Assembly (NCBI GenBank): GCA_946479055.1
Contig: CAMLEX010000050.1
Coordinates: 1-12,864, forward strand
Direction of reading: 5' to 3'
DNA: 12,864 nucleotides
DNA from: an uncultured Bacteroidota bacterium
GTDB taxonomy: Bacteria > Bacteroidota > Bacteroidia > Chitinophagales > Chitinophagaceae
Of the stretch, positions 1 to 12,864 are shown in pieces; the first letter of the stretch is position 1, and each line of letters opens with the position of its first letter. The notes under the pieces were generated by a model. That model had not been told where the DNA came from. It made no database searches and saw only the letters and a program-made list of their open reading frames with translations. The translations under genes and the position numbers were made by a program.

Positions 1-1
1 T

Positions 2-2197: not shown

Positions 2198-2206
2198 GTT
2201 TTGAAA

Positions 2207-2250
2207 GGTGAGTGTTGGATGGGGTTACTCACTACTGACAACTCAACACT
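2207..2250. repeat. Inverted GTGAGT/ACTCAC words in nuoG-nuoH spacer
   Basis: The 71-bp spacer holds GTGAGT (2208-2213) and its complement ACTCAC (2227-2232), extendable by G-U pairs to 8 pairs around an 11-nt loop. An alternative 7-bp pairing is AGTGTTG (2211-2217) with CAACACT (2244-2250). The words match the GTGAGTG array family found after nuoL and, inverted, before nuoN. No T-run follows, so it is not an intrinsic terminator. It could be an mRNA processing or stability hairpin, or simply a pair of array fragments. Confidence 0.5.
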
Positions 2251-2268
2251 AACGGCAAAAAAAATATT

Positions 2269-3228
2269 ATGACTGTCATGCAACATATATGGATTGTGCT
2301 CGGTGTATTGTTTGTGTTGTTAAATATAGCAGCCGGGCTTATTTGGGTGGAGCGAAGACTATTGGCTTTATGGCAGGACAGGCTGGGTCCTAACCGTGCA
2401 GGACCTTTGGGAATTCTTATTGTATTGGCCGATACGCTGAAATTATTTTTTAAAGAGGATTGGATCCCACCTTTTGCTGATAAATGGGTTTTTATTTTGG
2501 CTCCGGCCATTGTAGTAGCCAGTGTGTTGATGAGTTTTGTTATTATACCCTTTGCTCCCAATATTGTTGTAGCTGATTTGAATATTGGTTTATTATTCTT
2601 CCTTGCCATGTCTTCATTGGGTGTTTATAGTATTGTGTTGGGTGGTTGGGCATCCAACAATAAATATTCACTGCTCGGAGCATTGCGGGGTGCATCGCAA
2701 ATGATCGCTTACGAAGTGTTCATGGGTTTATCATTGATGGGAGTAGTGATGCTTACCGGTTCGTTTAATCTGAGTGATATTGTACTGGCTCAAAAAAATA
2801 TGTGGTTCATCGTCACACAACCGCTTGGCTTTATCATTTTTTTTATTGCAGGAATTGCAGAAACGCATCGTTTGCCTTTTGATATCCCTGAAGCGGAAAG
2901 TGAGTTGATTGCCGGTTATCATGCGGAATATTCGGGAATGAAATTCGGGATGTTTTTTATTGGCGAATACCTGGGCATTACTTTGATCTCGGCGATGACG
3001 GTGACGATGTTTTTCGGTGGATGGCTGGGACCATCTTTTTTACCGCCATGGGCCTGGTTTTTCCTGAAAACATTTGTGTTTATCGGGTTATTCATATTGC
3101 TAAGGGCATCACTTCCCCGGCCGCGTTATGATCAACTGATGGAGTATGGTTGGAAATGGTTATTGCCGTTAGTTCTATTGAATTTGTTGGTAACGGGGGC
3201 AATAGCATTGTGGATTAAAGGAATGTAA
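2269..3228 (+). CDS. nuoH: NADH-quinone oxidoreductase subunit H
   Basis: NuoH is the membrane subunit that docks the peripheral arm and forms much of the quinone-binding cavity (the mitochondrial ND1 counterpart). The protein has 319 residues, the usual length, with about eight hydrophobic segments. Family motifs are clear: VERR (27-30), GPNRAGP (40-46), LFFKEDWIP (59-67), VADLNIG (101-107), [12 protein letters not shown] (129-140), the acidic loop [11 protein letters not shown] (203-213) running into [11 protein letters not shown] (217-227), and [10 protein letters not shown] (282-291). The acidic loop carries the glutamates implicated in coupling quinone chemistry to proton movement. The wording is close to E. 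coli NuoH. The ATG follows AAAAAAAATATT with no Shine-Dalgarno. A second ATG nine bases on is possible but gives a shorter N-terminus. It belongs to the nuo operon. Confidence 0.98.
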
Positions 3229-3232
3229 AAAA

Positions 3233-3248
3233 ATGTGGAAATGAGGAA
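3233..3248. repeat. Short ATGTGAAA-type 8-nt word array after nuoH
   Basis: Two consecutive 8-nt units, ATGTGGAA and ATGAGGAA, begin four bases after the nuoH stop codon. They belong to the same degenerate family (consensus about ATRTGRAA) that follows nuoI, nuoJ, nuoK and nuoM. The rest of the 120-bp spacer is AT-rich, with TCTCCT (3301-3306) complementary to AGGAGA (3331-3336). Confidence 0.5.
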
Positions 3249-3337
3249 AGAATATAAAGTTTAAAATAAAAATTGGTTCATTCATGATTTAAAAAATAAT
3301 TCTCCTGGAGTTGTTGCAAAACTTCTCGTTAGGAGAT

Positions 3338-3342
3338 GGGAG
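3338..3342 (+). promoter_or_regulatory. Shine-Dalgarno-like GGGAG before nuoI
   Basis: GGGAG ends six bases before the nuoI ATG. Most genes in this window have no such sequence, as expected for Bacteroidota, so this may be incidental. Its upstream neighbour AGGAGA (3331-3336) could pair with TCTCCT (3301-3306). Confidence 0.35.
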
Positions 3343-3348
3343 TAAATT

Positions 3349-3864
3349 ATGATAAGTCATATCAGAACAATGTGGTTGGTTTTTTTACACTTGTTTCGTA
3401 AAAAAGCAACCATTGAATACCCGGAGGAAAAAGTTAAACTGCATCCCCGTTATAAAGGACGCATCGTATTAACAAAAGATCCGGATGGAGGTGAACGCTG
3501 TGTGGGTTGTTATTTATGTGCAGTTGCTTGTCCCGTGGATTGCATTGCATTGCAGGCCACCGAAGATGAGAACGGCCGACGATACCCTGAATTTTTCCGG
3601 ATCAATTTTTCCCGATGCATTTTTTGCGGCTATTGTGAAGAAGCTTGTCCTACTTATGCCATTCAACTGATCCCTGATTTTGAAATGGCCGAATACAACC
3701 GGCAAAACCTCGTCTTTGAAAAAGAAGACTTGTTGATTGACAGCCAGGGAAAATATCCAGGGTATAATTTTTACAAAGTAGCCGGAATGGATGCAGGCGT
3801 GAAAGGAACAGGTGAGGGAGTTAATGAAGAGCCGCCGGTGGATATAAAGAGTTTGTTGCCTTAG
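3349..3864 (+). CDS. nuoI: NADH-quinone oxidoreductase subunit I, two [4Fe-4S] ferredoxin-like
   Basis: NuoI carries clusters N6a and N6b and hands electrons from NuoG towards N2 and quinone at the membrane surface. The 171-residue protein has both classical motifs: C51-x2-C54-x2-C57-x3-C61-P and C90-x2-C93-x2-C96-x3-C100-P. An N-terminal amphipathic helix (about 1-20) would lie on the membrane. The central block ([17 protein letters not shown], then EEACP and EKEDLLI) and the C-terminal end DIKSLLP closely resemble E. coli NuoI (180 residues), rather than the shorter-tailed forms of many other bacteria. That comparison is from memory. The start ATG has a GGGAG six bases upstream. The TAG stop is followed within five bases by an ATGTGAAA word array. 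Fully intact. Confidence 0.98.
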
Positions 3865-3869
3865 AAAAA

Positions 3870-3890
3870 ATGTGAAAATGATATGCAAAC
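3870..3890. repeat. ATGTGAAA word fragment after nuoI
   Basis: One exact ATGTGAAA unit (3870-3877), then a degenerate ATGATATGCAAAC. It begins six bases after the nuoI stop, the same placement as the arrays after nuoH and nuoK. Confidence 0.45.
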
Positions 3891-3925
3891 AGCTCGTAGC
3901 TCATGGCTAATAGCGCAAAGCTTGA
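3891..3925. repeat. AGCTNAT-type 7-nt word array (nuoI-nuoJ spacer)
   Basis: Five consecutive 7-nt units can be read without gaps: AGCTCGT, AGCTCAT, GGCTAAT, AGCGCAA, AGCTTGA. This family differs from those in the other nuo spacers. No ORF or RNA gene is visible in it. Confidence 0.55.
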
Positions 3926-3932
3926 ATTTATA

Positions 3933-3963
3933 AACTTTTCAACCTGTTAATTGTCAACTTTAT
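3933..3963. repeat. AACTTTTC-type word array overlapping the nuoJ start
   Basis: The units AACTTTTC, AACCTGTT, AATTGTC and AACTTTAT give a near-8-nt period with consensus about AAYYTKTY. The array supplies the in-frame TAA just before nuoJ (3948-3950), the TTG start (3951) and the first codons. Confidence 0.5.
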
Positions 3964-4532
3964 TCTACATATCATCCATCATTGCGATCATCGCCACTAT
4001 CATGGTGATTACCCGCTATACACCTATTCATGCTTTACTATACCTGGTTGTTTCTTTTCTTGCAGTAGCAATGATTTTTTTGTCATTGGGAGCACCATTT
4101 GTTTCGGTACTGGAAGTGATTGTATATGCCGGAGCTATTATTGTATTATTCATTTTTGTTGTGATGATGCTAAACCTCGGTACTGAAACCGCTATGCAGG
4201 AAAAACAATGGCTGCAGCCAAAAGTGTGGATAGGCCCATCGGTGTTAGCATTGGTGTTGTTAGTAGAGATGGTCATATTGCTGGCAAAAGGAAATGATAC
4301 TACCATTCTGATTTCAGTAGTGGATCCCCGGAAGGTTGCTCTTTCGCTTTATCGCGAATATATTATTGCTTTAGAACTGGCTGGTTTCCTGTTGATGGCA
4401 GGCATTGTAGGAGCCGCACATATAGGTCAGCATAAGAAAAGAACATTGCATCGGTTTTTGGAAGAGAAGGAAGAGCCGGAAGTTATTAGCCAGGAGTTGG
4501 GAATGAAAGAAAGGGAAAATGTGAGAATATGA
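3951..4532 (+). CDS. nuoJ: NADH-quinone oxidoreductase subunit J
   Basis: NuoJ is a membrane subunit of the proximal arm (ND6 counterpart) whose third helix takes part in the conformational coupling of quinone reduction to pumping. The 193-residue protein has five hydrophobic segments and the family motif EVIVYAGAIIVLFIFVVMM (55-73). The start must be TTG. An in-frame TAA lies immediately upstream, and from the TTG the protein aligns without gaps to my recollection of the E. coli N-terminus (FYI...IAI.AT..VIT...P.HALLYL). The first ATG is only at residue 18 and would remove most of helix 1. The last nine codons (MKERENVRI) and the TGA stop lie inside an ATGTGAAA-type word array, so this tail is probably not conserved in relatives. 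Confidence 0.96.
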   Translation: MSTLFYISSIIAIIATIMVITRYTPIHALLYLVVSFLAVAMIFLSLGAPFVSVLEVIVYAGAIIVLFIFVVMMLNLGTETAMQEKQWLQPKVWIGPSVLALVLLVEMVILLAKGNDTTILISVVDPRKVALSLYREYIIALELAGFLLMAGIVGAAHIGQHKKRTLHRFLEEKEEPEVISQELGMKERENVRI

Positions 4533-4534
4533 AA
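4503..4534. repeat. ATGTGAAA-type 8-nt word array forming the nuoJ 3' end
   Basis: Four contiguous 8-nt units, ATGAAAGA, AAGGGAAA, ATGTGAGA and ATATGAAA, overlap the last codons of nuoJ. The TGA stop (4530-4532) is within the last unit. Confidence 0.6.
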
Positions 4535-4613
4535 ATCCACGCCGTTGGCGGGACAAGTTGTGCAAATGAAAAACACCCATGTGTAATTATAATTTAAAAC
4601 AGGGAAGGGAGAT
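4533..4613. other. nuoJ-nuoK spacer with purine-rich ribosome-binding-like tract
   Basis: This 81-bp spacer has no ORF. It contains CGCCGTTGGC (4540-4549), a small GCC/GGC palindrome that recurs exactly at 12404-12413. It ends with GGGAAGGGAG (4602-4611), two bases before the nuoK ATG, the strongest Shine-Dalgarno-like tract in the window although the spacing is short. Confidence 0.4.
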
Positions 4614-4922
4614 ATGAATTCTTTTAACGCAGATATTGCATTGATCGTTGCCGCAATACTTTTTGTATTGGGACTCATTGGCGTGCTGACACGAAAGAAT
4701 ATCATTTTTATTTTAATCTCAATAGAAGTGATGCTGAATGCAGCAGGACTGGCATTTGTAGCGGCGGGAGCAAAATGGCAACAGCCTGATGGGCAAGTTA
4801 TGTTTTTGTTCATATTAGCGATGGCTGCGGCAGAGGTTTCGATTGGACTGGCATTGGTGCTGCAGGCTTATCATCAGCACAAAACATTGGATGTGGAGCA
4901 ACTGAAGGAATTGAAAGACTAA
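4614..4922 (+). CDS. nuoK: NADH-quinone oxidoreductase subunit K
   Basis: NuoK is a three-helix membrane subunit (ND4L counterpart) between NuoJ and NuoN, and part of the proton pathway. At 102 residues it has the normal length (E. coli 100). The two buried glutamates essential for coupling are present: E38 in ISIEVMLNAAGLAF and E74 in AMAAAEVSIGLAL, equivalent to E36 and E72 of E. coli. The motif KWQQPDGQVMFLFI joins helices 2 and 3. The ATG is preceded by a purine-rich GGGAAGGGAG. The TAA stop is followed three bases later by the clearest ATGTGAAA word array of the window. Its operon position between nuoJ and nuoL is canonical. Confidence 0.98.
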   Translation: MNSFNADIALIVAAILFVLGLIGVLTRKNIIFILISIEVMLNAAGLAFVAAGAKWQQPDGQVMFLFILAMAAAEVSIGLALVLQAYHQHKTLDVEQLKELKD

Positions 4923-4925
4923 AGA

Positions 4926-4957
4926 ATGTGAAAATATGGAAATATGAAAATGTGAAA
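4926..4957. repeat. ATGTGAAA-type 8-nt word array after nuoK
   Basis: Four units in perfect 8-nt register: ATGTGAAA, ATATGGAA, ATATGAAA, ATGTGAAA. This is the cleanest member of the family and defines the consensus ATRTGRAA. Confidence 0.7.
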
Positions 4958-4960
4958 ATA

Positions 4961-5006
4961 GAAGTTCGGAAGTTGTAAGTCGCTTGACTATTCCCTATGG
5001 ACGATT
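4961..5006. repeat. Two further degenerate word tracts in nuoK-nuoL spacer
   Basis: GAAGTTCG, GAAGTTGT and AAGTCGCT (4961-4984) have an 8-nt period. GACTATT, CCCTATG and GACGATT (4986-5006) have a 7-nt period. They differ from the arrays on either side, making this spacer a mosaic. The period reading is weaker here than for the flanking arrays. Confidence 0.4.
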
Positions 5007-5010
5007 CACA

Positions 5011-5052
5011 AGTTGAACATTGAGCATTGAAAATTGAACATTGAAAATTCCT
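5011..5052. repeat. CATTGAA-type 7-nt word array before nuoL
   Basis: Six units in 7-nt register: AGTTGAA, CATTGAG, CATTGAA, AATTGAA, CATTGAA, AATTCCT. Downstream, AATGTTGAACATT (5071-5083) is a near-perfect palindrome made of the same words. No protein or RNA gene is seen between nuoK and nuoL (186 bp). Confidence 0.65.
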
Positions 5053-5108
5053 GCTTGATGAAAGGTAGGGAATGTTGAACATTTTTAATTGAGTCTAACA
5101 ATTCATTC

Positions 5109-6998
5109 ATGAACAACCTGCTTGCATTTATCCCCGCATTGCCCCTGGCCGGTTTCCTGGTGCTGTCACTGGCGGGAAGAGGTTTGCACAGAAATGCAAT
5201 TGCATGGATTGGTGCCGGTACCGTTGGCGCTGCTGCTATTATTACTATGATAGCAGGTGTTCAGTTTTTACAAACTCCCCCTGTTGATGGTGCATATACA
5301 CAGACACTCTGGCAATGGATGAGCACTGAAAATTTATCCATCGCTATCAGCTTGCGGTTAGATGCATTGTCACTGGTGTTTGTATTCATTATCACATTTG
5401 TTGGAGCTCTTATTCATATTTATTCGACAGCTTTTATGCGGCACGACCGGGATTATTCCCGCTTTTTTGCCTGCATGAATCTGTTTGTATTTGCTATGCT
5501 GTTGCTGGTAATGGCTGACAACCTTGTGCTGATGTATCTCGGTTGGGAAGGGGTGGGGCTCTGCAGCTATTTACTCATCGGTTTCTGGTATGAAACACCT
5601 GCTAATTGCCGAGCCGCGAATAAAGCTTTCTATATTACCCGTATCGGTGATACGGCTATGGCTATCGGATTGTTCCTTTTATTTAAAGAATTAGGAACCC
5701 TGAATATTCCTGATATTCTTCAGCAATCTCCACAGCATTTTACAAACAGTTCATCAAACATTACACTTATCGCATTATTACTGCTTGCAGGTGGCATGGG
5801 TAAATCAGCACAACTACCATTGCAAACCTGGTTACCGGATGCCATGGCCGGGCCTTCACCGGTGAGTGCATTGATACATGCAGCCACCATGGTGACGGCC
5901 GGTGTGTATCTCATTGCACGGATGCATACAGTATTTCAACTTTCGCCGTTTGCGATGGATGTTACAGCTATTGTTGGCGCATTGACTTTACTCATTGCCG
6001 GCTGCAGTGCGATGGTGCAAACAGATATCAAACGAATATTGGCTTATTCAACGATCAGCCAGATCGGCTATATGTTCCTTGCATTAGGAATAGGCGCCTG
6101 GAGTGCCGGCATCTTTCATTTTTTCACCCATGCTTTTTTCAAAGCGTTATTATTTCTTGCCGCAGGAGCAATTATAGAATCCCTCCATCACGAACATGAT
6201 ATTTTCAAAATGGGAGGACTTAAAAACAGAATGCCCGTTGTGTTCCGTTGCTTCCTTGCTGGTGCAGCCGCATTGGCGGCATTGCCGTTGATCAGTGCAG
6301 GCTTTTTTAGTAAAGATCAAATTTTGTGGTATGCCTGGAGTGCTGATAATGGGAATGCTATGCTCTGGATAATTGCTTTGACGGGTGCTTTCATCACTGC
6401 TCTTTATACTACCCGGTTAATGCTAGTTGTTTTTTGGGGTGAAATGAAAACCCCGATCAGTGCATATCCGGGGAGGTTAATGACTGTTCCATTGATCATA
6501 CTTGCCATCTTATCCGTTGTTGCAGGATTTATAGAATGGCCTCACAATCTAATCCACATGACCCTGTTCTCAGATCTTGTACAAAAGGTTTTACCTGCAA
6601 CCATTCTTAAGGAAGGCATTCCTCCAGAAATCATCTTTCAATTGATTGCTGCTGTTCTCACACTCCTGGCGGTGTATACGGGGTATGTATTGTATTACCG
6701 CAACAGAACATTGATTGAAAAATGGAAGTTATCACCTGCTATGATGACGATACGAAACTTTTTCTTTAAAGGTTGGGGTTTTGACCAATTATATGAAACC
6801 GTGTTTGTTAAACCATTTGTATTTATAACACGCATTAATAAGGCTGATGTATTTGATAAATTATATAATGGTATAGCAAAAGCAAATCAAACATTGAATC
6901 GTTTATTATCGGTTTCGCAAAACGGTTCTTTGCGCTGGTATATTGCCGGTGTGTTGATAGGGATCTTGTTTATTTTGACTTTGCAATTGTTATTGTGA
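5109..6998 (+). CDS. nuoL: NADH-quinone oxidoreductase subunit L, antiporter-like
   Basis: NuoL is the most distal of the three Mrp-antiporter-like proton pumps of the membrane arm (ND5 counterpart). Its 629 residues are close to the usual length (E. coli 613). The pump residues are present: E147 in YLGWEGVGLCSYLLIGFWY, and K232 in GGMGKSAQLPLQTWLPDAMAGPSPVSALIHAATMV, corresponding to E144 and K229 of E. coli. HAATMVTAGVYLIAR (257-271) is the signature around the broken helix. The C-terminal part (about 540-629) contains the segment leading to the long amphipathic helix that runs along the membrane arm, and a final transmembrane anchor. There is no Shine-Dalgarno before the ATG. The TGA stop is formed by the first GTGAGTG unit of a word array. 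No frameshift or missing residue was noticed. Confidence 0.98.
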   Translation: MNNLLAFIPALPLAGFLVLSLAGRGLHRNAIAWIGAGTVGAAAIITMIAGVQFLQTPPVDGAYTQTLWQWMSTENLSIAISLRLDALSLVFVFIITFVGALIHIYSTAFMRHDRDYSRFFACMNLFVFAMLLLVMADNLVLMYLGWEGVGLCSYLLIGFWYETPANCRAANKAFYITRIGDTAMAIGLFLLFKELGTLNIPDILQQSPQHFTNSSSNITLIALLLLAGGMGKSAQLPLQTWLPDAMAGPSPVSALIHAATMVTAGVYLIARMHTVFQLSPFAMDVTAIVGALTLLIAGCSAMVQTDIKRILAYSTISQIGYMFLALGIGAWSAGIFHFFTHAFFKALLFLAAGAIIESLHHEHDIFKMGGLKNRMPVVFRCFLAGAAALAALPLISAGFFSKDQILWYAWSADNGNAMLWIIALTGAFITALYTTRLMLVVFWGEMKTPISAYPGRLMTVPLIILAILSVVAGFIEWPHNLIHMTLFSDLVQKVLPATILKEGIPPEIIFQLIAAVLTLLAVYTGYVLYYRNRTLIEKWKLSPAMMTIRNFFFKGWGFDQLYETVFVKPFVFITRINKADVFDKLYNGIAKANQTLNRLLSVSQNGSLRWYIAGVLIGILFILTLQLLL

Positions 6999-7028
6999 GT
7001 GGTGAGTGGTGAGTGGTGAGTAGTGAAT
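6995..7028. repeat. GTGAGTG 7-nt word array at the nuoL 3' end
   Basis: GTGAGTG three times, then GTGAGTA and GTGAAT, in perfect 7-nt register. The nuoL TGA stop (6996-6998) is inside the first unit. The last 20 bases (7009-7028) are the exact reverse complement of 8716-8735 in front of nuoN. Confidence 0.75.
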
Positions 7029-7047
7029 ATCTCATAAAAAGGATCAT

Positions 7048-7106
7048 CCCCTCCCTGGAGGGGCGAAATGCGGACAATATAAAATTTAAACGACCGGGGT
7101 GGGTTG
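7048..7106. repeat. GC-rich palindrome plus GGGGTGGGTTG motif in nuoL-nuoM spacer
   Basis: CCCCTCC (7048-7054) and GGAGGGG (7057-7063) form a compact palindrome. After an AT-rich stretch, CCGGGGTGGGTTG follows at 7094-7106. The pair looks like an intergenic element of the palindrome-plus-G-rich-tail type, here split by about 30 bases. No T-run follows, so it does not look like a terminator. It is noncoding as far as I can see. Confidence 0.4.
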
Positions 7107-7125
7107 TTGAATAACGAACTGAAAG

Positions 7126-7176
7126 TACAAGTGTGCGACGCAACAGACGATGATCAGGGATACAAAAGCTGGGGGC
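7126..7176. other. GC-richer noncoding block before nuoM
   Basis: Within the 205-bp nuoL-nuoM spacer, a block containing GTGTGCGACGCAACAGACGA and then GATCAGGGATACAAAAGC stands out as compositionally different from the surrounding A/T-rich words. There is no ORF. It may be another dispersed intergenic repeat, but only one copy occurs here so I cannot show that. Confidence 0.3.
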
Positions 7177-7203
7177 ATAAAAAAAATTAATTGATTCTAT
7201 TTT

Positions 7204-8676
7204 ATGATACTCGCATGGATGATATGCATATTATTAATTGGCGGACTACTGTGCTGGCTGATATCACGGTGGAACAGCCAATTGGCAAAATGGATTGCCT
7301 TGATTGCAGTAATCATTGACTTTGTCATCATCTGCAATTTATGGATACAACAGCAGGCATCAGTAACCGCTGAAAGTTGGTTTATCAATTACCAGGTGAG
7401 CTGGATTCCTTCCTTCGGTATCAGTTTTCATTTGGCATTGGATGGATTAAGTACTGTAATGCTGTTGCTCACTTTTTTCCTCGGCATACTGTCAGTGCTT
7501 TGTTCGTGGAATGAGATCAAAGAAAGAATTGGTTTTTATTTTTTCAACCTGCTCTGGACACTGGCCGGCATCAGTGGTGTATTTGTGGCTATGGATCTTT
7601 TCCTGTTTTATTTTTTCTGGGAAGTGATGCTGGTGCCCATGTATTTTTTGATTGCGCTCTGGGGCGATAGCAACCGTCGTTATGCCTCGTATAAATTTTT
7701 CATTTTTACGCAGGCAGGAGGTCTGCTGATGCTGCTGGCTATTCTTGCCCTGTATATTATCCACGGACAGCAAACAGGCAATTATTCGTATGATTATTTT
7801 GATTTATTAAATACAACACTGGAACCTTCTGCTGCCAAATGGATCATGATGGGATTTTTAATTGCCTTTGCAGTGAAGTTGCCGGTGGTGCCGCTGCATA
7901 ATTGGTTGCCCGATGCGCATAGTGAAGCGCCGACAGCAGGCAGCCTGATATTAGCGGGTTTATTATTGAAGACCGGGGCTTATGGGATCATCCGTTTTGT
8001 ATTGACATTATTTCCGCAGGCATCGGCAGAGATTGCATGGTGGGCTATGTTGTTTGGTGTAATAGGAATTGTGTATGGAGCCCTGCTTGCTTTTGCACAA
8101 ACGGATCTCAAACGGCTGATTGCTTATACTTCAGTAAGCCACATGGGTTTTGTGTTACTCGGCATTTTTGCTTTTCGTGAAATGGCCATGCAGGGTGTGG
8201 TGATGCAAATGCTTACGCACGGTATCAGTACGGGAGCTTTATTCGTTATGGCCGGAATGCTGAAAGAACGATTACATACAAGAGATATCAATCAAATGGG
8301 TGGATTATGGACATCCATGCCCGCTATGGGAGGTGTGGCGATTTTGTTTACGATGGCTTCACTGGGACTGCCTGTGCTTGGTAATTTCGTTGCGGAGTTT
8401 TTGATTTTGCTAAGTGCATTTTCAGTAAATAGTACACTTACTGTTATTGCCAGCCTGGGATTGGTATTTTCTGCTTTGTATTCGCTGCGTATGATGCAGA
8501 AAGTTTTTCTTGGACAACCAACTGCTAGCCGGCCCCTGAAAGATTTTAGTGGAAGAGAATTGATTATTATGGCTGCGCTAAGTATTAGCATCGTCGCATT
8601 GGGATTGTATCCGCAACCCGTGATGGAGACTGTAAAAGGGTTTATTCAGCAGATCGTTGCAAATGTGCAAATGTGA
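7204..8676 (+). CDS. nuoM: NADH-quinone oxidoreductase subunit M, antiporter-like
   Basis: NuoM is the middle antiporter-like proton pump of the membrane arm (ND4 counterpart). Its 490 residues are slightly shorter than E. coli NuoM (509). Key residues are in place: E140 in FFWEVMLVPMYFLIALWG, K225 in AFAVKLPVVPLHNWLPDAHSEAP and K256 in AGLLLKTGAYGIIRF. These are the counterparts of the essential Glu and Lys residues of the family. The start ATG follows TGATTCTATTTT with no Shine-Dalgarno. The last four codons (NVQM) and the TGA stop lie in an ATGTGAAA-type word array, so the extreme C-terminus is probably lineage-specific. The gene is bracketed by a 20-nt perfect inverted repeat (7009-7028 and 8716-8735). 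Confidence 0.98.
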   Translation: MILAWMICILLIGGLLCWLISRWNSQLAKWIALIAVIIDFVIICNLWIQQQASVTAESWFINYQVSWIPSFGISFHLALDGLSTVMLLLTFFLGILSVLCSWNEIKERIGFYFFNLLWTLAGISGVFVAMDLFLFYFFWEVMLVPMYFLIALWGDSNRRYASYKFFIFTQAGGLLMLLAILALYIIHGQQTGNYSYDYFDLLNTTLEPSAAKWIMMGFLIAFAVKLPVVPLHNWLPDAHSEAPTAGSLILAGLLLKTGAYGIIRFVLTLFPQASAEIAWWAMLFGVIGIVYGALLAFAQTDLKRLIAYTSVSHMGFVLLGIFAFREMAMQGVVMQMLTHGISTGALFVMAGMLKERLHTRDINQMGGLWTSMPAMGGVAILFTMASLGLPVLGNFVAEFLILLSAFSVNSTLTVIASLGLVFSALYSLRMMQKVFLGQPTASRPLKDFSGRELIIMAALSISIVALGLYPQPVMETVKGFIQQIVANVQM

Positions 8677-8694
8677 AAATATGCAAATGTTTAA
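8663..8694. repeat. ATGTGAAA-type 8-nt word array at the nuoM 3' end
   Basis: Four units in 8-nt register: ATGTGCAA, ATGTGAAA, ATATGCAA, ATGTTTAA. The nuoM TGA stop (8674-8676) is in the second unit. This is the same family as after nuoK. Confidence 0.65.
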
Positions 8695-8715
8695 TGACTA
8701 ATTGACTTTTATGAC

Positions 8716-8743
8716 ATTCACTACTCACCACTCACTATTCACC
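8716..8743. repeat. AYTCACY 7-nt word array abutting the nuoN start
   Basis: Units ATTCACT, ACTCACC, ACTCACT and ATTCACC in perfect 7-nt register end two bases before the nuoN ATG. They therefore occupy the position where a Shine-Dalgarno would be. The array is the reverse complement of the GTGAGTG family at the nuoL end, with 20 bases (8716-8735) exactly complementary to 7009-7028. Confidence 0.75.
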
Positions 8744-8745
8744 AT

Positions 8746-10179
8746 ATGACTAACGAACAACTTCTTGCATTTCTTCCTTTCATGTTGCTGGCAGCAGCAT
8801 CAATAGTTGTGATATTGCTGATTGCATTTCGTTTAAGTCATACAGTGATACAAGTGACCGGATTCCTGATGATGTGTATGGTGATATTGGCCATGTGGTA
8901 TGTGAGAGGGGTTTTGCCGGTATCGATAATGCCCTTGTTTGTAGTGGATGGATTTGGTGCTTTATTCACGGGGCTGATTATTTTTTCAGTACTGACGATA
9001 GGATTATTTTCCTTTATTTATTTTGAAGAAAAAGAAGAAAATCCAAAAGAATATTATATCCTTTTATTCCTGGGAACATTGGGTTCAGCTTTGCTTACTA
9101 TCAGCCGGCATTTTATTTCTTTCTTCCTCGGGTTGGAATTACTGAGTGTCAGTTTGTATGCCCTGATCGCTTACCTGCGCAACCGTAATAATGCCGTGGA
9201 AGCAGGAATGAAATACCTGGTGCTTGCAGCCCTGACATCGGCTTTTTTATTATTTGGTATGGCATTGATCTATATGGACACCGGCAGCATGGAGTTTGCA
9301 GCCATTGCCCAAAAAATAAATGTTTCATCCCCATTATTTCTTACAGGGGTGGGCATCATGCTTGTGGCCATTGGTTTTAAACTGGCTTTGGTGCCTTTTC
9401 ACCTTTGGGCGGCGGATGTATACCAGGGTGCGCCTGCACCGGTTACTACGTTTATCGCTACTGTTTCTAAAATAGGTGTGTTCGCGGTATTGTTACGATT
9501 TGCTCAAACCATTAACTTACAACAATATCCTCTTGCTATCACGATCTTTTCTGCTATTGCTATTATTTCCATGCTGGTTGGAAACTTACTGGCTTTGCAG
9601 CAGCAAAACATCAAACGCATCCTTGCATATTCTTCCATTGCGCATTTTGGTTATTTGCTTGTTGCATTTTTACCAGGCAATAAGGCGGGAGTGGAGGCAT
9701 CTGTATTTTATTTACTTTCTTATTCTGTTACCTTGCTGGCGGCCTTTGGTGTTATCACGGTATTGTCATCCCGTCAAAGAGATGCGGAAGAATTAGAAAT
9801 TTACCAGGGATTGTTTTGGAGAAATCCAGTAATGGCATTGGTATTAACGATCGCATTATTATCATTGGCCGGTATTCCATTAACTGCCGGTTTTATTGGT
9901 AAATTCTATGTGCTTACTTCGGGTGTAGAACAAAATTTATGGCTCCCGGTAATCATGCTGGTGATCACCAGTGTGATTGGCTTGTATTATTACCTGCGTA
10001 TCATCAGTACCTTATTTACCGCATCACCGGCAGCTATGGTAAAAGAAAAAACATTGCATCCCTTTTTTTATACAGCAATGAATGCGGCATTAATAGTGTT
10101 GTCGCTGATCCTGTTCGGGTTGGGAATTTTTCCGGGAATAGCGATTGAAATGATGAGAGTGTTTCTCGAAATCGGTTGA
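8746..10179 (+). CDS. nuoN: NADH-quinone oxidoreductase subunit N, antiporter-like
   Basis: NuoN is the proximal antiporter-like proton pump, next to NuoK (ND2 counterpart), and the last nuo gene. Its 477 residues match the family (E. coli 485). The key residues are E131 in FFLGLELLSVSLYALIAYL, K212 in GFKLALVPFHLWAADVYQGAP and K242 in ATVSKIGVFAVLLRF. These correspond to E133, K217 and K247 of E. coli as I recall the numbering. About 14 hydrophobic segments fill the protein. The start ATG has no Shine-Dalgarno and is immediately preceded by the AYTCACY array. The operon ends here, since the next gene is convergent with only 13 bases between the two stop codons and no strong terminator seen. 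Confidence 0.98.
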   Translation: MTNEQLLAFLPFMLLAAASIVVILLIAFRLSHTVIQVTGFLMMCMVILAMWYVRGVLPVSIMPLFVVDGFGALFTGLIIFSVLTIGLFSFIYFEEKEENPKEYYILLFLGTLGSALLTISRHFISFFLGLELLSVSLYALIAYLRNRNNAVEAGMKYLVLAALTSAFLLFGMALIYMDTGSMEFAAIAQKINVSSPLFLTGVGIMLVAIGFKLALVPFHLWAADVYQGAPAPVTTFIATVSKIGVFAVLLRFAQTINLQQYPLAITIFSAIAIISMLVGNLLALQQQNIKRILAYSSIAHFGYLLVAFLPGNKAGVEASVFYLLSYSVTLLAAFGVITVLSSRQRDAEELEIYQGLFWRNPVMALVLTIALLSLAGIPLTAGFIGKFYVLTSGVEQNLWLPVIMLVITSVIGLYYYLRIISTLFTASPAAMVKEKTLHPFFYTAMNAALIVLSLILFGLGIFPGIAIEMMRVFLEIG

Positions 10180-10192
10180 TTTTTAAAACAAG

Positions 10193-10702
10193 TTAAAGGC
10201 TCTTTAAAATCTTTTTTCCTCGTGCCCGGAATGCCGCTGATTCATAATCCCAGCGATCTTCAATAATCGTTTTTAGTTCAGACCTTATTTCAGGATATTT
10301 TTTAGATAAATTTTCTAAAATTGTCAAAGCGAATGCTTTAACCGCTACAAATTCAGTAGGACAACTGATATAGCCGAAACAGATATCCATTACCTGGCCC
10401 TGGAATTTTTCAGGAATTTGTATATCCTGCATCAGGCGAACGGTATTTCTTTTAACCGAATTATGGATACCGGGCTTATCCAGGTTTTTCAGCAATTTGG
10501 AAAAATGTTTTTTGATAAACTCCGGATGAGCCATAACCGTATAACTCAATGGCCACGCAGCCCGTTGCACAACCCGGTATTCATCCTTTAAAAAAAGATC
10601 AAACAACTGATCAAATCGCTGTTGTGAATTCCCGATCCATTGTACAATCGCATTACAGTTTGCTTTGGAGTGTTCTTTTAATATCTGTTCACGTAACTTC
10701 AT
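10193..10702 (-). CDS. Small helical HEAT-like repeat protein of unknown function
   Basis: The predicted protein has 169 residues, no signal peptide and no membrane segment, so it should be cytosolic. I do not recognise a named family. The sequence reads as successive amphipathic helices with the look of HEAT/armadillo repeats, for instance RFDQLFDLFLKDEYRVVQRAAWPLS (about 29-53), HFSKLLKNL (66-74), VKRNTVRLMQDI (83-94), VAVKAFALTILENL (about 119-132) and IRSELKTIIED (about 138-148). Such alpha-solenoids usually bind other proteins. It is convergent with nuoN and divergent from the DUF62 lipoprotein gene, with a 45-bp region between the two starts. There is nothing to tie it to complex I other than position. 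That it is a real gene is likely from length and coherent composition. Its function is unknown. Confidence 0.8.
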   Translation of the reverse strand: MKLREQILKEHSKANCNAIVQWIGNSQQRFDQLFDLFLKDEYRVVQRAAWPLSYTVMAHPEFIKKHFSKLLKNLDKPGIHNSVKRNTVRLMQDIQIPEKFQGQVMDICFGYISCPTEFVAVKAFALTILENLSKKYPEIRSELKTIIEDRWDYESAAFRARGKKILKSL

Positions 10703-10747
10703 TGAGAATGCAAATAAATAACTTTACCGGATATAAAAAATGGCTCA

Positions 10748-11653
10748 ATGAAAAAGGAATTGGTGTTAATCATTTGTATGTTATTGTTATTGGCATGCAA
10801 TCCGGGGAAAGATCAATCGGGTGCTGTGGTCATACAAACAGATTTTGGTGTTAAAGATGGAGCCGTAGCCGCTATGAAAGGCGTAGCGCTTGGAGTTGAC
10901 GAAGATTTGGTATTGGTCGACCTGACACACGAAATACCAGCGTATAATATTTGGGAAGCCGCTTATCGATTAAACCAGGTTATTCCTTTCTGGCCGGCCA
11001 ATACGGTCTTTGTTTCTGTAGTAGATCCCGGTGTGGGAACTGAACGGAAATCCATTGTTGTAAAAACAAGAAAAGGACATTATATCGTAACGCCCGACAA
11101 TGGTACAACAACGCTGGTGGCTGAATCGGAAGGAATAGACGCCGTACGCAGCATAGATGAAAAAATAAATCGCCGCGAAGGTTCTGATAGTTCCTATACG
11201 TTTCATGGACGGGATGTTTATATGTACACGGCTGCAAGGCTGGCGTCAGGAAAAATAAAATTTGAAGAAGTCGGACCGGCGCTGAATGAACCACTGAAAA
11301 CTATATCATACCAGCGGGCCATATTTGAAAACGGATTGATAAAAGGAAATATCCCGGTGCTGGATCCGCAATATGGAAATGTATGGACGAATATTCCTGA
11401 TACAATGATTAAACGGGCAGGAATTAAAACCGGCGATTCACTTAGCGTCAGCATTTCGTTTAAAGACTCATTGGTTTGTTCCGGAAAAATTTTGTTTGCA
11501 AATACATTTGGCGCTGTTGCTGAAGGAAAACCGTTGGGCTATGTAAATAGCCTGATGAATTTTTCATTAGCGATCAATATGGGAAATTTTGCAGAGGCAT
11601 TTAAAGTAGGTTCCGGTGCAGACTGGACCATCAGCATACAAACTGGCCGGTGA
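10748..11653 (+). CDS. SAM hydroxide adenosyltransferase (DUF62) family lipoprotein
   Basis: The 301-residue protein belongs to the family that includes SAM hydroxide adenosyltransferases, fluorinase and chlorinase. Members split S-adenosylmethionine by attack of water/hydroxide or a halide on C5', giving adenosine or a halo-adenosine plus methionine. Visible motifs are TDFG (31-34) with D37, DLTHEIP (58-64), VVDPGVGTER (91-100), PDNG (116-119), SYTFHGRDVY (149-158) and DPQYGNVWTNI. The Asp-Arg-His triad known from the archaeal hydrolases maps to D93, R100 and H153, with the same Asp-to-Arg spacing of seven. Unusually, the N-terminus (MKKELVLIICMLLLLAC) is a lipoprotein signal with lipobox LLAC and C17, so it should be exported and lipid-anchored, where SAM is not expected. 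It could act on another nucleoside or halide, or on leaked SAM. Family assignment is firm; substrate and location are inference. Confidence 0.92.
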   Translation: MKKELVLIICMLLLLACNPGKDQSGAVVIQTDFGVKDGAVAAMKGVALGVDEDLVLVDLTHEIPAYNIWEAAYRLNQVIPFWPANTVFVSVVDPGVGTERKSIVVKTRKGHYIVTPDNGTTTLVAESEGIDAVRSIDEKINRREGSDSSYTFHGRDVYMYTAARLASGKIKFEEVGPALNEPLKTISYQRAIFENGLIKGNIPVLDPQYGNVWTNIPDTMIKRAGIKTGDSLSVSISFKDSLVCSGKILFANTFGAVAEGKPLGYVNSLMNFSLAINMGNFAEAFKVGSGADWTISIQTGR

Positions 11654-11692
11654 GGCCAATGATGAAAGCATCATTAATGCCGACCGACCAGT
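11642..11692. other. Long imperfect hairpin overlapping the DUF62 gene stop
   Basis: ACTGGCCGGT (11642-11651) pairs with ACCGACCAGT (11683-11692), 9 of 10. Inside, AATGATG (11658-11664) pairs perfectly with CATCATT (11669-11675) around an AAAG loop, and a GGC/GCC pair lies in the middle. The TGA stop (11651-11653) is inside the left arm. No T-run follows on either strand, so a classical intrinsic terminator is unlikely. It ends exactly where the first copy of the modular repeat starts. Confidence 0.6.
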
Positions 11693-11841
11693 AAATCTTA
11701 ATCCTCAGTAAAGTTAAAACTTAAAACCTTTTCCTATAATTTATATTATGTTAAATGGCGCACAGTCGTGTATTAATACAAAAACGGCTTGGCTTCTATC
11801 GTGAGAACTAATACAGTCGTTTACCGATGGGAATTGCGTAC
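11693..11841 (+). repeat. Modular repeat, copy 1 (direct)
   Basis: First copy of an unrecognised repeat of about 150 bp. Modules are a degenerate AAATCTTAATCC (11693 on), TATAATTTA, TTATGTTAAATGGCGCAC (11746-11763), a 42-nt variable middle, AACTAATACAGTCGTTTA (11806-11823), a 10-nt variable gap and TTGCGTAC (11834-11841). The 18-nt modules are identical to copy 2, and the distances between them (60 and 28) are also the same. The middle contains the perfect palindrome TGTATTAATACA (11769-11780). The whole 11654-11865 interval has no supported gene; an ORF starts 25 bases after the repeat. Confidence 0.75.
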
Positions 11842-11865
11842 TTAAAGACGTAGATTCGTTTTTGA

Positions 11866-12318
11866 ATGGGAACATTTAAGGATGAATACGGCAACAAAAC
11901 TACTTATACCAGAGATCAAGTTGATGCAATTTCAGCTGCTACGGTAATTTCAAAGTGTAAGGAACAAATTAAAACGCATGGCTTTGCCAGACTTAGTGAT
12001 GTAATAAAATTGGAACTTGGAGTACCGAAACCACTTGATTTTTACAAACGTATAGCTTATAAACTTCATGCTACAGGAAAGTATATTTACGTCCCTATTA
12101 AATCAGATATTGGAAATGATTTTGAAATATTCCCAATCCCAAAAAAATCATGGAAAGAAAGATATTGGTGGGCTACCACAGCTATAAATATTACAATCGG
12201 TCTGGTACTTGGCTTTGTCTTTAGAATAGTAACCGAGCCAAAGCATACCCAACAAGTAAACCAAAAAGAATCTGTCCAATTATCGCCCACCATTCCTGAT
12301 ACACTGCGTGAAAAGTAG
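11866..12318 (+). CDS. Hypothetical protein with C-terminal membrane anchor
   Basis: A 150-residue protein that I do not recognise. Residues 1-98 look soluble and mixed alpha/beta: a helical stretch about 15-50, then KYIYVPIKSDIGNDFEIF (72-89). A single hydrophobic segment (about 101-122) follows a basic, aromatic KKSWKERYWW, and a polar tail rich in Gln and Ser ends the chain. A cytoplasmic domain anchored by one C-terminal helix is the simplest reading. The start is constrained by an in-frame TGA directly before the ATG (11863-11865). Base composition looks more A/T-rich than the nuo genes. It lies 25 bases downstream of repeat copy 1, in accessory DNA. Its last 98 bases overlap a - strand ORF; I favour this strand because the polar tail (VNQKESVQLS) explains the hydrophobic reading opposite. 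Confidence 0.65.
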   Translation: MGTFKDEYGNKTTYTRDQVDAISAATVISKCKEQIKTHGFARLSDVIKLELGVPKPLDFYKRIAYKLHATGKYIYVPIKSDIGNDFEIFPIPKKSWKERYWWATTAINITIGLVLGFVFRIVTEPKHTQQVNQKESVQLSPTIPDTLREK

Positions 12319-12589
12319 ATTTTTCAATCGCCTTCGGATTTTTCTTGAATGAGAACGATTGACCTCCATATTCAAATGGTATGGGATTGGGATGTATTTT
12401 ACTCGCCGTTGGCTCGTATTTTAATACATCTCCCCTTCGTTTTTGTTTTAATACACTCCGCTTACTTCGGGTACGTTTAACAACTAAACATAAAACGTAC
12501 CCTACACAAAAGCACCCCAAGTAACATAATATATAGTTATACGCAAAGGACATATTTAATAGCATCTTGTGGGGATAAGATTTTTTCAT
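12221..12589 (-). CDS. Doubtful hypothetical ORF, chimeric with repeat copy 3
   Basis: A 122-codon ORF with a hydrophobic N-terminal third (about 10-37), a basic middle (KRTRSKRSVLKQKRR), a more ordinary stretch IHPNPIPFEYGGQSFSFKKNP, and a hydrophobic end (WWAIIGQILFGLLVGYALA). Its first 40 or so codons lie wholly in the inverted repeat copy 3, and its start is in the arm of the big palindrome. Its last 33 codons are antisense to the 150-residue ORF. That leaves about 50 codons (12319-12468) that might be independently coding. It may be a pseudogene, a gene whose 5' end was replaced by a repeat, or no gene. No other + strand ORF is seen in 12319-12609. Confidence 0.3.
   Translation of the reverse strand: MKKSYPHKMLLNMSFAYNYILCYLGCFCVGYVLCLVVKRTRSKRSVLKQKRRGDVLKYEPTASKIHPNPIPFEYGGQSFSFKKNPKAIEKSTFHAVYQEWWAIIGQILFGLLVGYALARLLF
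12391..12456. repeat. TTTTAATACA direct and inverted words
   Basis: TTTTAATACA occurs at 12419-12428 and 12446-12455, each followed by a CTCC..CTT motif. GATGTATT (12391-12398) is complementary to AATACATC (12423-12430). On the - strand, 12438-12456 reads GTGTATTAAAACAAAAACG, which differs at one base of 19 from 11768-11786 in the middle of repeat copy 1, so this block is probably linked to the modular repeat. Confidence 0.5.
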
Positions 12590-12590
12590 C
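12469..12590 (-). repeat. Modular repeat, copy 3 (inverted)
   Basis: Read on the - strand from 12590, this has the same module order as copy 2: the ATCTTATCCCC arm, TATAAC (12536-12541), TTATGTTA (12522-12529), AGTTGTTAAACGTACCC in place of AGTCGTTTA...TTGCGTACC. It is shorter in the right half. Its distal end adds a private inverted repeat, GGGTACGTTT (12469-12478) with AAACGTACCC (12493-12502), 10 perfect pairs with a 14-nt loop. Confidence 0.6.
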
Positions 12591-12637
12591 AGGTATGCAC
12601 CTTTGACAGATGAAAAAATCTTATCCCCACAGGATGC
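12562..12637. repeat. 29-bp near-perfect palindrome with 18-nt loop
   Basis: Arms 12562-12590 and 12609-12637 are complementary over 29 positions with one exception (T12567 opposite G12632, a G-U pair in RNA). The loop 12591-12608 begins AGGTATGCACCT, which can form its own 4-bp stem. The arms are the inner ends of repeat copies 3 and 2, which meet head to head. Each arm also contains an ATG reading outwards as MKKSYPH followed by K or R and M. Could form a cruciform or a very stable RNA hairpin. Confidence 0.85.
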
Positions 12638-12767
12638 AGAGAGAAAAAGGAAGTTTCCATATAACTTACTTTTATGTTAAATGGCGCACGGGGGCTGGTT
12701 TTAAAAGAAAAGCCCACGCTGCCGGCGTGATAACTAATACAGTCGTTTATTGATTTGATTTGCGTAC
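12609..12767 (+). repeat. Modular repeat, copy 2 (direct)
   Basis: Second direct copy. The modules are the palindrome arm (12609-12636), TATAACTTA, TTATGTTAAATGGCGCAC (12672-12689), a 42-nt variable middle, AACTAATACAGTCGTTTA (12732-12749), a 10-nt gap and TTGCGTAC (12760-12767). Two 18-nt blocks are identical to copy 1, at the same distances. The middle differs completely from copy 1 and has its own stems (GGGCT/AGCCC and CACGC/GCGTG). A 47-codon ORF (12610-12753) spans the copy but is probably not a gene. Confidence 0.75.
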
Positions 12768-12772
12768 CCCTA

Positions 12773-12864
12773 CTATTGAGGTTGTTTAGTAGTTTCTGGT
12801 GTCTTTTTGGACTTGAATAGCGTACGATTGTGGTTATAGGCTTTAGTTCCCGTTATTGTAAGAA
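12773..12864 (-). CDS. C-terminal tail of a gene cut by the right edge (possible)
   Basis: On the - strand a frame open from the window edge to TAG (12773-12775) encodes 29 residues, including TKAYNHNRTLFKSKKTPETT and ending KQPQ. The polar, Lys/Thr/Pro-rich character is typical of a disordered protein C-terminus. Twenty-nine codons are too few to prove coding. The stop lies six bases from the outer end of repeat copy 2, so on this strand the repeat would directly follow the gene. No function can be proposed. Confidence 0.35.
   Translation of the reverse strand, partial: LTITGTKAYNHNRTLFKSKKTPETTKQPQ

Follow-up and report, generated by a model that had tools for sequence, protein, structure and literature searches.

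What kind of element repeats itself near the right-hand end of the window, the 12,864-nt stretch analysed here from an uncultured member of the Chitinophagaceae (Bacteroidota; GenBank assembly GCA_946479055.1, contig CAMLEX010000050.1, positions 1 to 12,864), where two direct copies and one inverted copy of a modular sequence surround a single short open reading frame (ORF)? The initial annotation saw there either a folded DNA or RNA element or a pair of recombination sites delimiting a cassette, and recognised neither the element nor its mobilising enzyme; its observation is partly confirmed and its interpretation partly supported. Copy 1 contains the chromosomal dif site, where chromosome dimers are resolved, and the reading that we favour, with a probability of roughly 0.7, is that two or more small mobile gene cassettes, dependent on the host recombinases XerC and XerD (XerCD) and integron-like, stand in tandem in the window, inserted at dif. 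The cassettes are a new variant among the mobile elements that exploit Xer recombination, with the layout of an integron.

The dif site and the unit beside it

The first of the two 18-nt blocks shared by the direct copies consists of the XerD arm of dif followed by GGCGCAC, and the site around it has the XerC arm, 6-nt centre and XerD arm of a chromosomal dif. The dif1 site of Vibrio cholerae ends in the same TTATGTTAAAT, a standard XerD arm (PMC3089051). Allowing one mismatch, a 22-nt core of the site, CCTATAATNNNNATTATGTTAA, is present in 134 of 195 Chitinophagaceae genomes, in a single copy in 132 and in two copies in the others (G177 and G188, G and L numbers being our labels for genomes and loci), with reversed-pattern controls near zero. 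Among six related genomes, G006 has the letters of the window, G005 has a core without mismatch, G001, G002 and G003 show one mismatch each, and G004 offers only a poor match.

For further comparison 120 dif loci were fetched; they come from 119 genomes, G177 giving two, and most span the 2 kb before dif and the 12 kb that follow it. The set is biased, in that about half of the first 30 dif sites, judged negative by eye from their 1.5-kb flanks, are not in it and that six loci were picked first as likely positives, and fractions over the 120 loci are not unbiased frequencies. The switch of GC skew that marks the terminus is present at dif as an average over the relatives' loci, from a mean of +0.058 in the kilobase before the site to -0.062 in the kilobase after it, and the skew is higher to the left than to the right in 84 of the 104 loci that are long enough; together with the arms, the 6-nt centre and the single copy, this gives the site the features of a dif.

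A looser site pattern, which with a hairpin detector replaced a position-weight scan of dif that had missed the sites with 7-nt centres, places three sites in the window, namely dif at 11735 (+) and two sites with 7-nt centres at 12541 (-) and 12660 (+), and the unit runs in the order dif, head, one ORF, hairpin site, next head (Table 1). The two heads form a direct repeat of 96 nt with 72% identity at an offset of 926 bp. As originally described, both 18-nt blocks are identical in the two direct copies and 60 nt apart, start to start, the cores between them are 42 nt long in each, and TTGCGTAC begins 28 nt downstream of the start of the second block. With at most three mismatches the second block gives two matches, where 0.01 is expected per window and none of 200 shuffles gave two; a 13-nt part of the first block taken alone, with three mismatches allowed, gives four against 5.5 expected, which is not significant, and what counts is the pair of exact copies at equal spacing.

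The generalisation drawn from these repeats, a fixed 60-nt spacing around a free core, is true of the window's two copies and breaks down as a rule, heads at related loci differing in length; a literal search for the exact blocks at their spacing gave no match in a collection of about 85,000 genomes. It is therefore the architecture of the site that recurs, and not its letters. Nor is the proposal of a folded element around the free 42-nt core supported for the head, the window's two heads folding no better than shuffled DNA (z 0.0 and -1.3). The part that folds is instead the pair formed by copies 3 and 2, which face each other across an inverted repeat of 29 nt (97% complementary), so that one strand can fold into a dif-like duplex. 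Copy 3, reported on the minus strand at 12469-12590, lacks the ordered 18-nt blocks attributed to it; what it does share is the inverted repeat, together with a dif-like site of the form TATAA-7 nt-TTATGTT. An Rfam search of the window gave no match at the gathering score, and its 14 permissive matches, to microRNA and ribozyme models on the long hairpin, every one lay below that score. The other early suggestion, of recombination sites delimiting a cassette, fits: the sites can be named as dif and Xer sites resembling it, probably served by the XerC/XerD of the host.

That all this is chance similarity, or the remains of decayed and immobile duplications of the dif region, is already disfavoured and hardly credible; many heads and sites are indeed degenerate and the window ORF is without relatives, but the control scans are empty and families of cargo genes recur between genomes. 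A plasmid search gave two short matches only, and a match of the block pattern in the viral contigs (L001), lying inside a phage coding gene, was judged to be chance. A 19-nt inverted repeat (95%; 11768-11786 and 12438-12456) joins the core of the first head to the tail of cassette 1, which looks like an inverted remnant of a head.

Table 1. Features at the right-hand end of the window, in window coordinates
Feature	Coordinates	Strand	Description
SAM hydroxide adenosyltransferase gene	10748-11653	+	left chromosomal flank; Pfam PF01887 4.2e-53, PF20257 7.6e-20
Chromosomal dif	11729-11756	+	left (XerC) arm TTTTCCTATAA, 6-nt centre TTTATA, right (XerD) arm TTATGTTAAAT
Cassette 1, 926 bp	11746-12671	+	begins with the XerD arm of dif, ends with the 7-nt centre of the following + site; boundaries inferred from site positions
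Head of cassette 1	11746-11841	+	XerD arm + GGCGCAC, 42-nt variable core, AACTAATACAGTCGTTTA, TTGCGTAC; related heads elsewhere
Cargo ORF, 150 aa, orphan	11866-12318	+	predicted winged-helix-like N-terminal part and C-terminal transmembrane helix
Whole folded att (attachment) site	12523-12678	+	XerD arms outermost, then centres, XerC arms, inner stem, 18-nt loop
Inverted dif-like site (attP2-like)	12523-12541	-	TATAA CTATATA TTATGTT on minus strand, 7-nt centre
Inner inverted repeat, left arm	12562-12590	+	holds GATTTTTT
Inner inverted repeat, right arm	12609-12637	+	holds AAAAAATC
Dif-like + site (attP1-like)	12654-12682	+	left arm TTTCCATATAA (12654-12664), centre CTTACTT (12665-12671), XerD arm TTATGTTAAAT (12672-12682)
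Second cassette head, cut by window end	12672-12767	+	96-nt repeat of head 1

On the left flank, the stop codon of the SAM hydroxide adenosyltransferase gene lies about 75 bp before dif, and at L132 and L133 dif likewise stands directly after this gene, with 22 bp between the last aligned codon and dif, where the window has 84 bp. On the right, a gene for a TPR protein is found within 4 kb of dif in 54 of the 120 loci, and in eight without a counted hairpin (L160, L197, L217, L218 and L235-L238) it is 88-202 bp away. Such short intervals between dif and the next gene, in relatives without a detected hairpin, are among the findings that the initial annotation had named as support for a mobile cassette; copies in other genomes and different genes between the sites in relatives, which it had also named, were found as well.

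Hairpins, heads and arrays in related genomes

The order of sites in the window recurs in relatives. Across the fetched loci, dif-like sites are clearly enriched only in the first kilobase after dif, with 23 against 8 in the reversed sequence; the neighbouring bins hold 10 against 8 and 8 against 6, and those further away lie at or under the control. When 12 minus/plus pairs were folded as single-stranded DNA, the XerD arms paired outermost in ten, followed inwards by mostly unpaired centres, the XerC arms and the long inner stem, which is how two inverted dif-like sites fold in CTXphi. The exceptions are the window's hairpin and one of those of L136, whose minimum-energy folds have the outer arms out-competed, those of the window not being paired with each other. 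The hairpin detector, set to inverted arms with a stem of 9 nt or more, gave 23 hits at about 20 places over the 120 loci, all within 1.2 kb of dif in loci of which most reach 12 kb, and none in the reversed sequence, a control that is fair for most pairs and unfair, to the detriment of our reading, for the ten hits in which dif itself is one arm. Stems of at least 18 nt are present in ten of the 120 loci (L133, L135, L136, L137, L146, L157, L176, L190, L193 and L212), and seven loci with stems of 9-11 nt (L150, L151, L177, L184, L199, L231 and L248) are not counted as hairpins.

Searched as an exact pattern, the hairpin was found in ten of 394 genomes of the family, at one place in each, with none in the controls; in eight of these ten it lies within about 1.3 kb of dif, and the assemblies of the other two (G086 and G127) hold no credible dif. 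A class-wide draw of 395 genomes gave two matches only (G002 and G092), both in Chitinophagaceae, and the hairpins come in total from 16 genomes, the window's included, and from one record of a tailed phage. Seventeen hairpins were compared, that of the phage record (L254) included. Their inner stems, 15-31 nt long, pair without a mismatch; since only perfect repeats were selected, this pairing is no independent count, whereas the empty reversed control is one. Between loci the left arms are identical at a median of 53%, GATTTT is present in 15 of the 17 (not in L176 or L261), and the facing dif-like sites stand 118-150 nt apart in 16.

These hairpins bear directly on the possibility that the units are duplex dif modules of the Acinetobacter kind, with cargo between opposed Xer sites and an inner repeat that is incidental or related to replication or transcription. 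Cassette 1 does sit between dif (+) and an inverted site, as such a module would, and the dif/pdif modules of Acinetobacter also form arrays, with Xer sites in both orientations and small cargo that includes toxin-antitoxin and unknown genes (PMC12907356). Their centres, however, are 6 nt in the tables, they lie on plasmids or in a chromosomal island and not beside the primary dif, and the word "hairpin" is absent from the main text of that paper (PMC12907356); here, by contrast, 17 hairpins set facing dif-like sites across a long stem of unrelated sequence, and centres of 7 and 6 nt would presumably be poor partners for a full duplex exchange. We regard duplex modules as unlikely. At two other dif loci, L117 (positions 1349, 1503, 1581, 2316 and 2408; G011) and L145, there are five or six dif-like sites of mixed orientation; no long inner stem was detected at either, and both resemble the Acinetobacter modules.

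Heads recur at related loci as well. Judged by eye, a consensus head, TTATGTTAA-R-YAGGCRCAC ... AAAGAAAA.GCC.ACGCTTCT, follows the dif of cassette loci and many plus sites, and the two blocks in the window are two members of it. Of 119 loci, 10 have CGCTTCT, a motif picked post hoc, in the 110 nt that follow dif, and 13 other intervals give 0-2 of 98-119; GCRCA in the first 26 nt after dif is less telling (8 of 119 against 1-6). Arrays are found at several loci: L259 has sites at +58, -658 and +786, L261 has two heads that start alike 842 bp apart, L258 has dif, a minus site and a plus site with a different head, and the window has its two heads in tandem.

Polarity, recombinases and the closest known systems

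We propose that a cassette consists of a conserved head, a short cargo gene and a 3' hairpin att site, in which two inverted dif-like sites with 7-nt centres flank a long inverted repeat. In single-stranded form the att site would fold to a dif-like duplex, which the host XerC/XerD could recombine with dif; an exchange at the XerD side would probably leave a usable dif on the left, so that a new cassette would enter beside dif and older ones would shift to the right. Such a layout would match that of an integron: dif would stand for attI, the hairpin for attC and XerCD for the integrase. The identity of dif, the anatomy of the sites, the hairpins, the arrays, the varied cargo at one locus and the presence in a tailed phage are observed; that XerCD catalyses the exchange, on a single strand and with this polarity, and what the cargo does are inferred. 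Eleven loci (the window, L133, L135, L136, L157, L176, L190, L193, L212, L257 and L258) have a host-type 6-nt centre at their left and a plus centre of 7 nt at their right, and it is this combination, of a chromosomal-type XerC arm and 6-nt centre on the left with a 7-nt centre on the right, that makes an exchange at the XerD side probable. Tyrosine-recombinase chemistry would be expected to give such a product when the folded site has its bottom strand exchanged by XerD, and the proposed exchange would occupy a place analogous to that of cassette insertion in integrons.

The letters of the centres were compared with the host dif at 11 of the 17 hairpin loci, six without dif to the left of the hairpin being excluded and the relatedness of the hosts not being removed. 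The XerD-proximal letters of the minus sites match the dif of their own host in 39 of 44 cases against 34.2 after shuffling (P 0.014), and two of the other centre ends do not track the host (10 of 44, P 1.0; 18 of 44, P 0.14). This speaks more for adaptation to the host dif than for any one polarity.

Several observations weigh against our reading and have to be set beside it. The XerC-proximal letters of the plus sites also track the host dif (24 of 44 against 19.1, P 0.0025), and since both types of site do so, centre matching does not settle which recombinase acts. At L135, L136, L137, L146 and L256 the hairpin has dif itself as its plus arm, which fits the polarity of CTXphi; XerD-side and CTXphi-type polarity may both be present. 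The hairpins are uncommon, at 10 of 120 dif loci with the six pre-picked positives included, and the exact pattern is found in 10 of 394 genomes. The window's own GC skew goes from +0.098 in the 6 kb before dif to +0.029 in the 1.1 kb after it, and is never negative. Lastly, permuted copies in three viral records (G781, L299 and L301) are joined inside the inner hairpin, which the action of XerCD at the outer arms does not explain.

Sixteen relatives, 15 with hairpins and one (G096) with a minus site, were scanned for recombinases. The XerD model found its family over the cut-off in 15 of the 16. No integron integrase exceeded the TIGR02249 cut-off of 265 bits in any of them; weaker matches, the best among the relatives at 119.7 bits, occur in all 16 as well as in all 14 control genomes, as the wider tyrosine recombinase family would lead one to expect. 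Xer-like recombinases of various lengths, many of about 400 aa and several near contig ends, were considered as a dedicated mobiliser and dropped, and at 17 fetched recombinase places there was no dif-like pair and no long cassette-type stem nearby. In G006 a 397-aa ORF (L082:1550-2743), a tyrosine recombinase by eye, starts about 30 bp after dif, at a locus where no hairpin was detected.

CTXphi, an integrative mobile element exploiting Xer (IMEX), resembles the cassettes in that no recombinase of its own is seen, in having two inverted dif-like sites that fold into a hairpin mimicking dif, with centres of at least 7 nt in most listed variants, and in leaving one functional dif and two defective sites after insertion (PMC3089051, PMC5357621). 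The cassettes differ in being small, about 1 kb, with a single cargo gene where CTXphi has a phage genome, in the long inner stem with its recurring GATTTT, and in standing in tandem arrays of different cargo in Bacteroidota; in place of a phage genome with rolling-circle replication, one short ORF lies on the cassette strand between the window's sites. In the insertion of CTXphi it is XerC that exchanges strands (PMC3089051, PMC5357621) and the functional dif comes to lie next to attP1, whereas the window and the ten loci grouped with it keep the host-type centre at the far left, the opposite polarity.

The likeness of the hairpin to the described attP of CTXphi (PMC3089051) raises the alternative of a satellite or remnant of a single-stranded DNA phage, either CTXphi/RS1-like or of the Microviridae, that has lost its capsid and Rep genes and in which the hairpin would serve as both attP and origin. 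Microviridae prophages without an integrase are indeed found at dif-like att sites in Bacteroidetes, and some carry a further dif-like site close to one of their ends (PMC3091885); the cargo of L259 weakly matches a phage replisome organiser domain (2e-4, below cut-off). Those proviruses, however, are phage genomes of about 6 kb with capsid genes (PMC3091885), where the cassettes have single small genes. By eye, no Rep- or capsid-like ORF is among those listed beside the sites, Pfam, run on 10 of the 34 cargo proteins, gave one match over its cut-off, to Fic, the cargo is varied, and the phage with several cassettes is a tailed one; such a remnant is decidedly unlikely.

Integron cassettes share with the units proposed here one gene and a folded att site per unit, a fixed chromosomal entry site and ordered arrays; the differences are that no integrase over the cut-off was found in the 16 genomes, that the sites are dif-like, and that every cassette carries its own head. 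The end of the XerD arm, GTTAAAT/GTTAAGY, fits what we take to be the consensus of the attC R-box, GTTRRRY; by eye this motif stands at the XerD arm, and RYYYAAC was not seen on the other side. In its working the unit is like a CTXphi-type phage or an integron, but judged by the features tested it is neither. In the accessible literature, which lay outside subscription papers and preprints and was seen in part, no description of such dif cassettes was found; work on Microviridae and gokushoviruses, Acinetobacter, CTXphi, Legionella and integrons was. Integron integrases are Xer-related and act on folded single strands. If our reading is right, an integrase-free cassette whose folded site is paired with dif would make a natural intermediate or a parallel to integrons, dif would be a hotspot of gene capture in a large environmental family and a place to seek unknown defence genes, and tailed phages would be linked to such cassettes as carriers.

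Cargo genes and viral records

Different ORFs lie to the right of dif at different loci. Thirty-four cargo ORFs were chosen by their position near sites or heads in the window, the relatives and one phage record, and not all of them belong to units with a proven hairpin. Within this small set, five cargo families recur between genomes at 21-66 bits (L146/L148, L239/L258, L133/L136, L148/L213/L261 and L136/L259); the window ORF matches the other cargo at no more than 8 bits, which is not significant, and a protein search limited to relatives sharing short exact words returned only the ORF itself. Its single-sequence structure model, with a mean predicted local distance difference test score (pLDDT) of 67.6, has helices at 24-69, strands at 73-90 and a helix at 96-122, and a Foldseek search against PDB returned mostly winged-helix proteins, none of them significant (best E 0.019); with moderate confidence we predict a winged-helix-like core and a C-terminal transmembrane helix.

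A hydropathy threshold for membrane helices is reached by 13 of the 34 cargo ORFs, and a loose RN...H motif is present in five. Among the ten proteins submitted to Pfam the one match over the cut-off is to Fic (2e-7), and another protein has matches to HEPN and Abi_2 below it. PADLOC, run on six, gave Fic-related matches for one (2e-10) and weak AbiD and Csx1-like matches for two; the remaining three, the window ORF among them, had none. NCBIfam gave nothing over cut-off for six. A role of the cargo in defence is only a suggestion.

The hairpin pattern was found in one viral contig, a 55-kb IMG/VR record (G781; IMGVR_UViG_3300015171_000006), and hairpin patterns at three other spacings gave no match in the viral contigs. 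Genes for a terminase, a portal, a major head protein, an integrase and a tape-measure protein identify G781 as a tailed phage, in which no dif was found within two mismatches. The same hairpin letters stand at three places in it (L295:1-1300, L295:11640-13120 and L254:7758-8667), one cut by the start of the record and one circularly permuted; the permuted copy lies between the portal and terminase genes and ends inside the inner stem beside TGATTTTTT. A 7-nt site with AGGC is present in four viral records in all. Besides G781 these are L300, which has a plus site with a head only, and L299 (with portal and head-morphogenesis genes) and L301 (with one PHROG family of unknown function), which by eye hold permuted units with similar junctions.

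The junctions of the permuted copies lie close to a GATTTT-like motif, as might be expected of a miniature inverted-repeat transposable element (MITE) or hairpin-ended transposon that prefers dif and is mobilised at its inner hairpin by an unrecognised transposase. The dif-linked copies, however, begin at the XerD arm of dif and retain dif-like arms at their far end, and the closeness to dif in eight of the ten exact-pattern genomes, the other two having no credible dif in the assembly, also speaks for the Xer sites; we consider a transposon very unlikely. To return to cassettes inserted at dif by XerCD, a wider claim can be built on them: that Chitinophagaceae hold an integrase-free parallel to integrons, which would enter at dif through the host XerCD and a folded hairpin att site, would spread small and often membrane-anchored winged-helix-like or HEPN/Fic-like genes, possibly anti-phage, and would also ride tailed phages, where a second junction in the GATTTT hairpin points to another insertion route. 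The chances that this fuller picture is right seem to us evenly balanced.

In L301 (280-1960) at least 30 nt are duplicated, in inverted orientation, on both sides of the cassette, which suggests template switching or a hairpin-linked insertion. Dif-like sites with 6-nt centres and AGGC are found in 18 viral contigs, among them L313, with terminase and portal genes, and L308, with a DNA polymerase beta-clamp domain; dif may be the attachment site for tailed phages of other Bacteroidota. In the short contigs L302, L303, L305, L311, L313, L314 and L319 the 6-nt AGGC site is accompanied each time by an ORF of 381 aa, which in L313 is the terminase.

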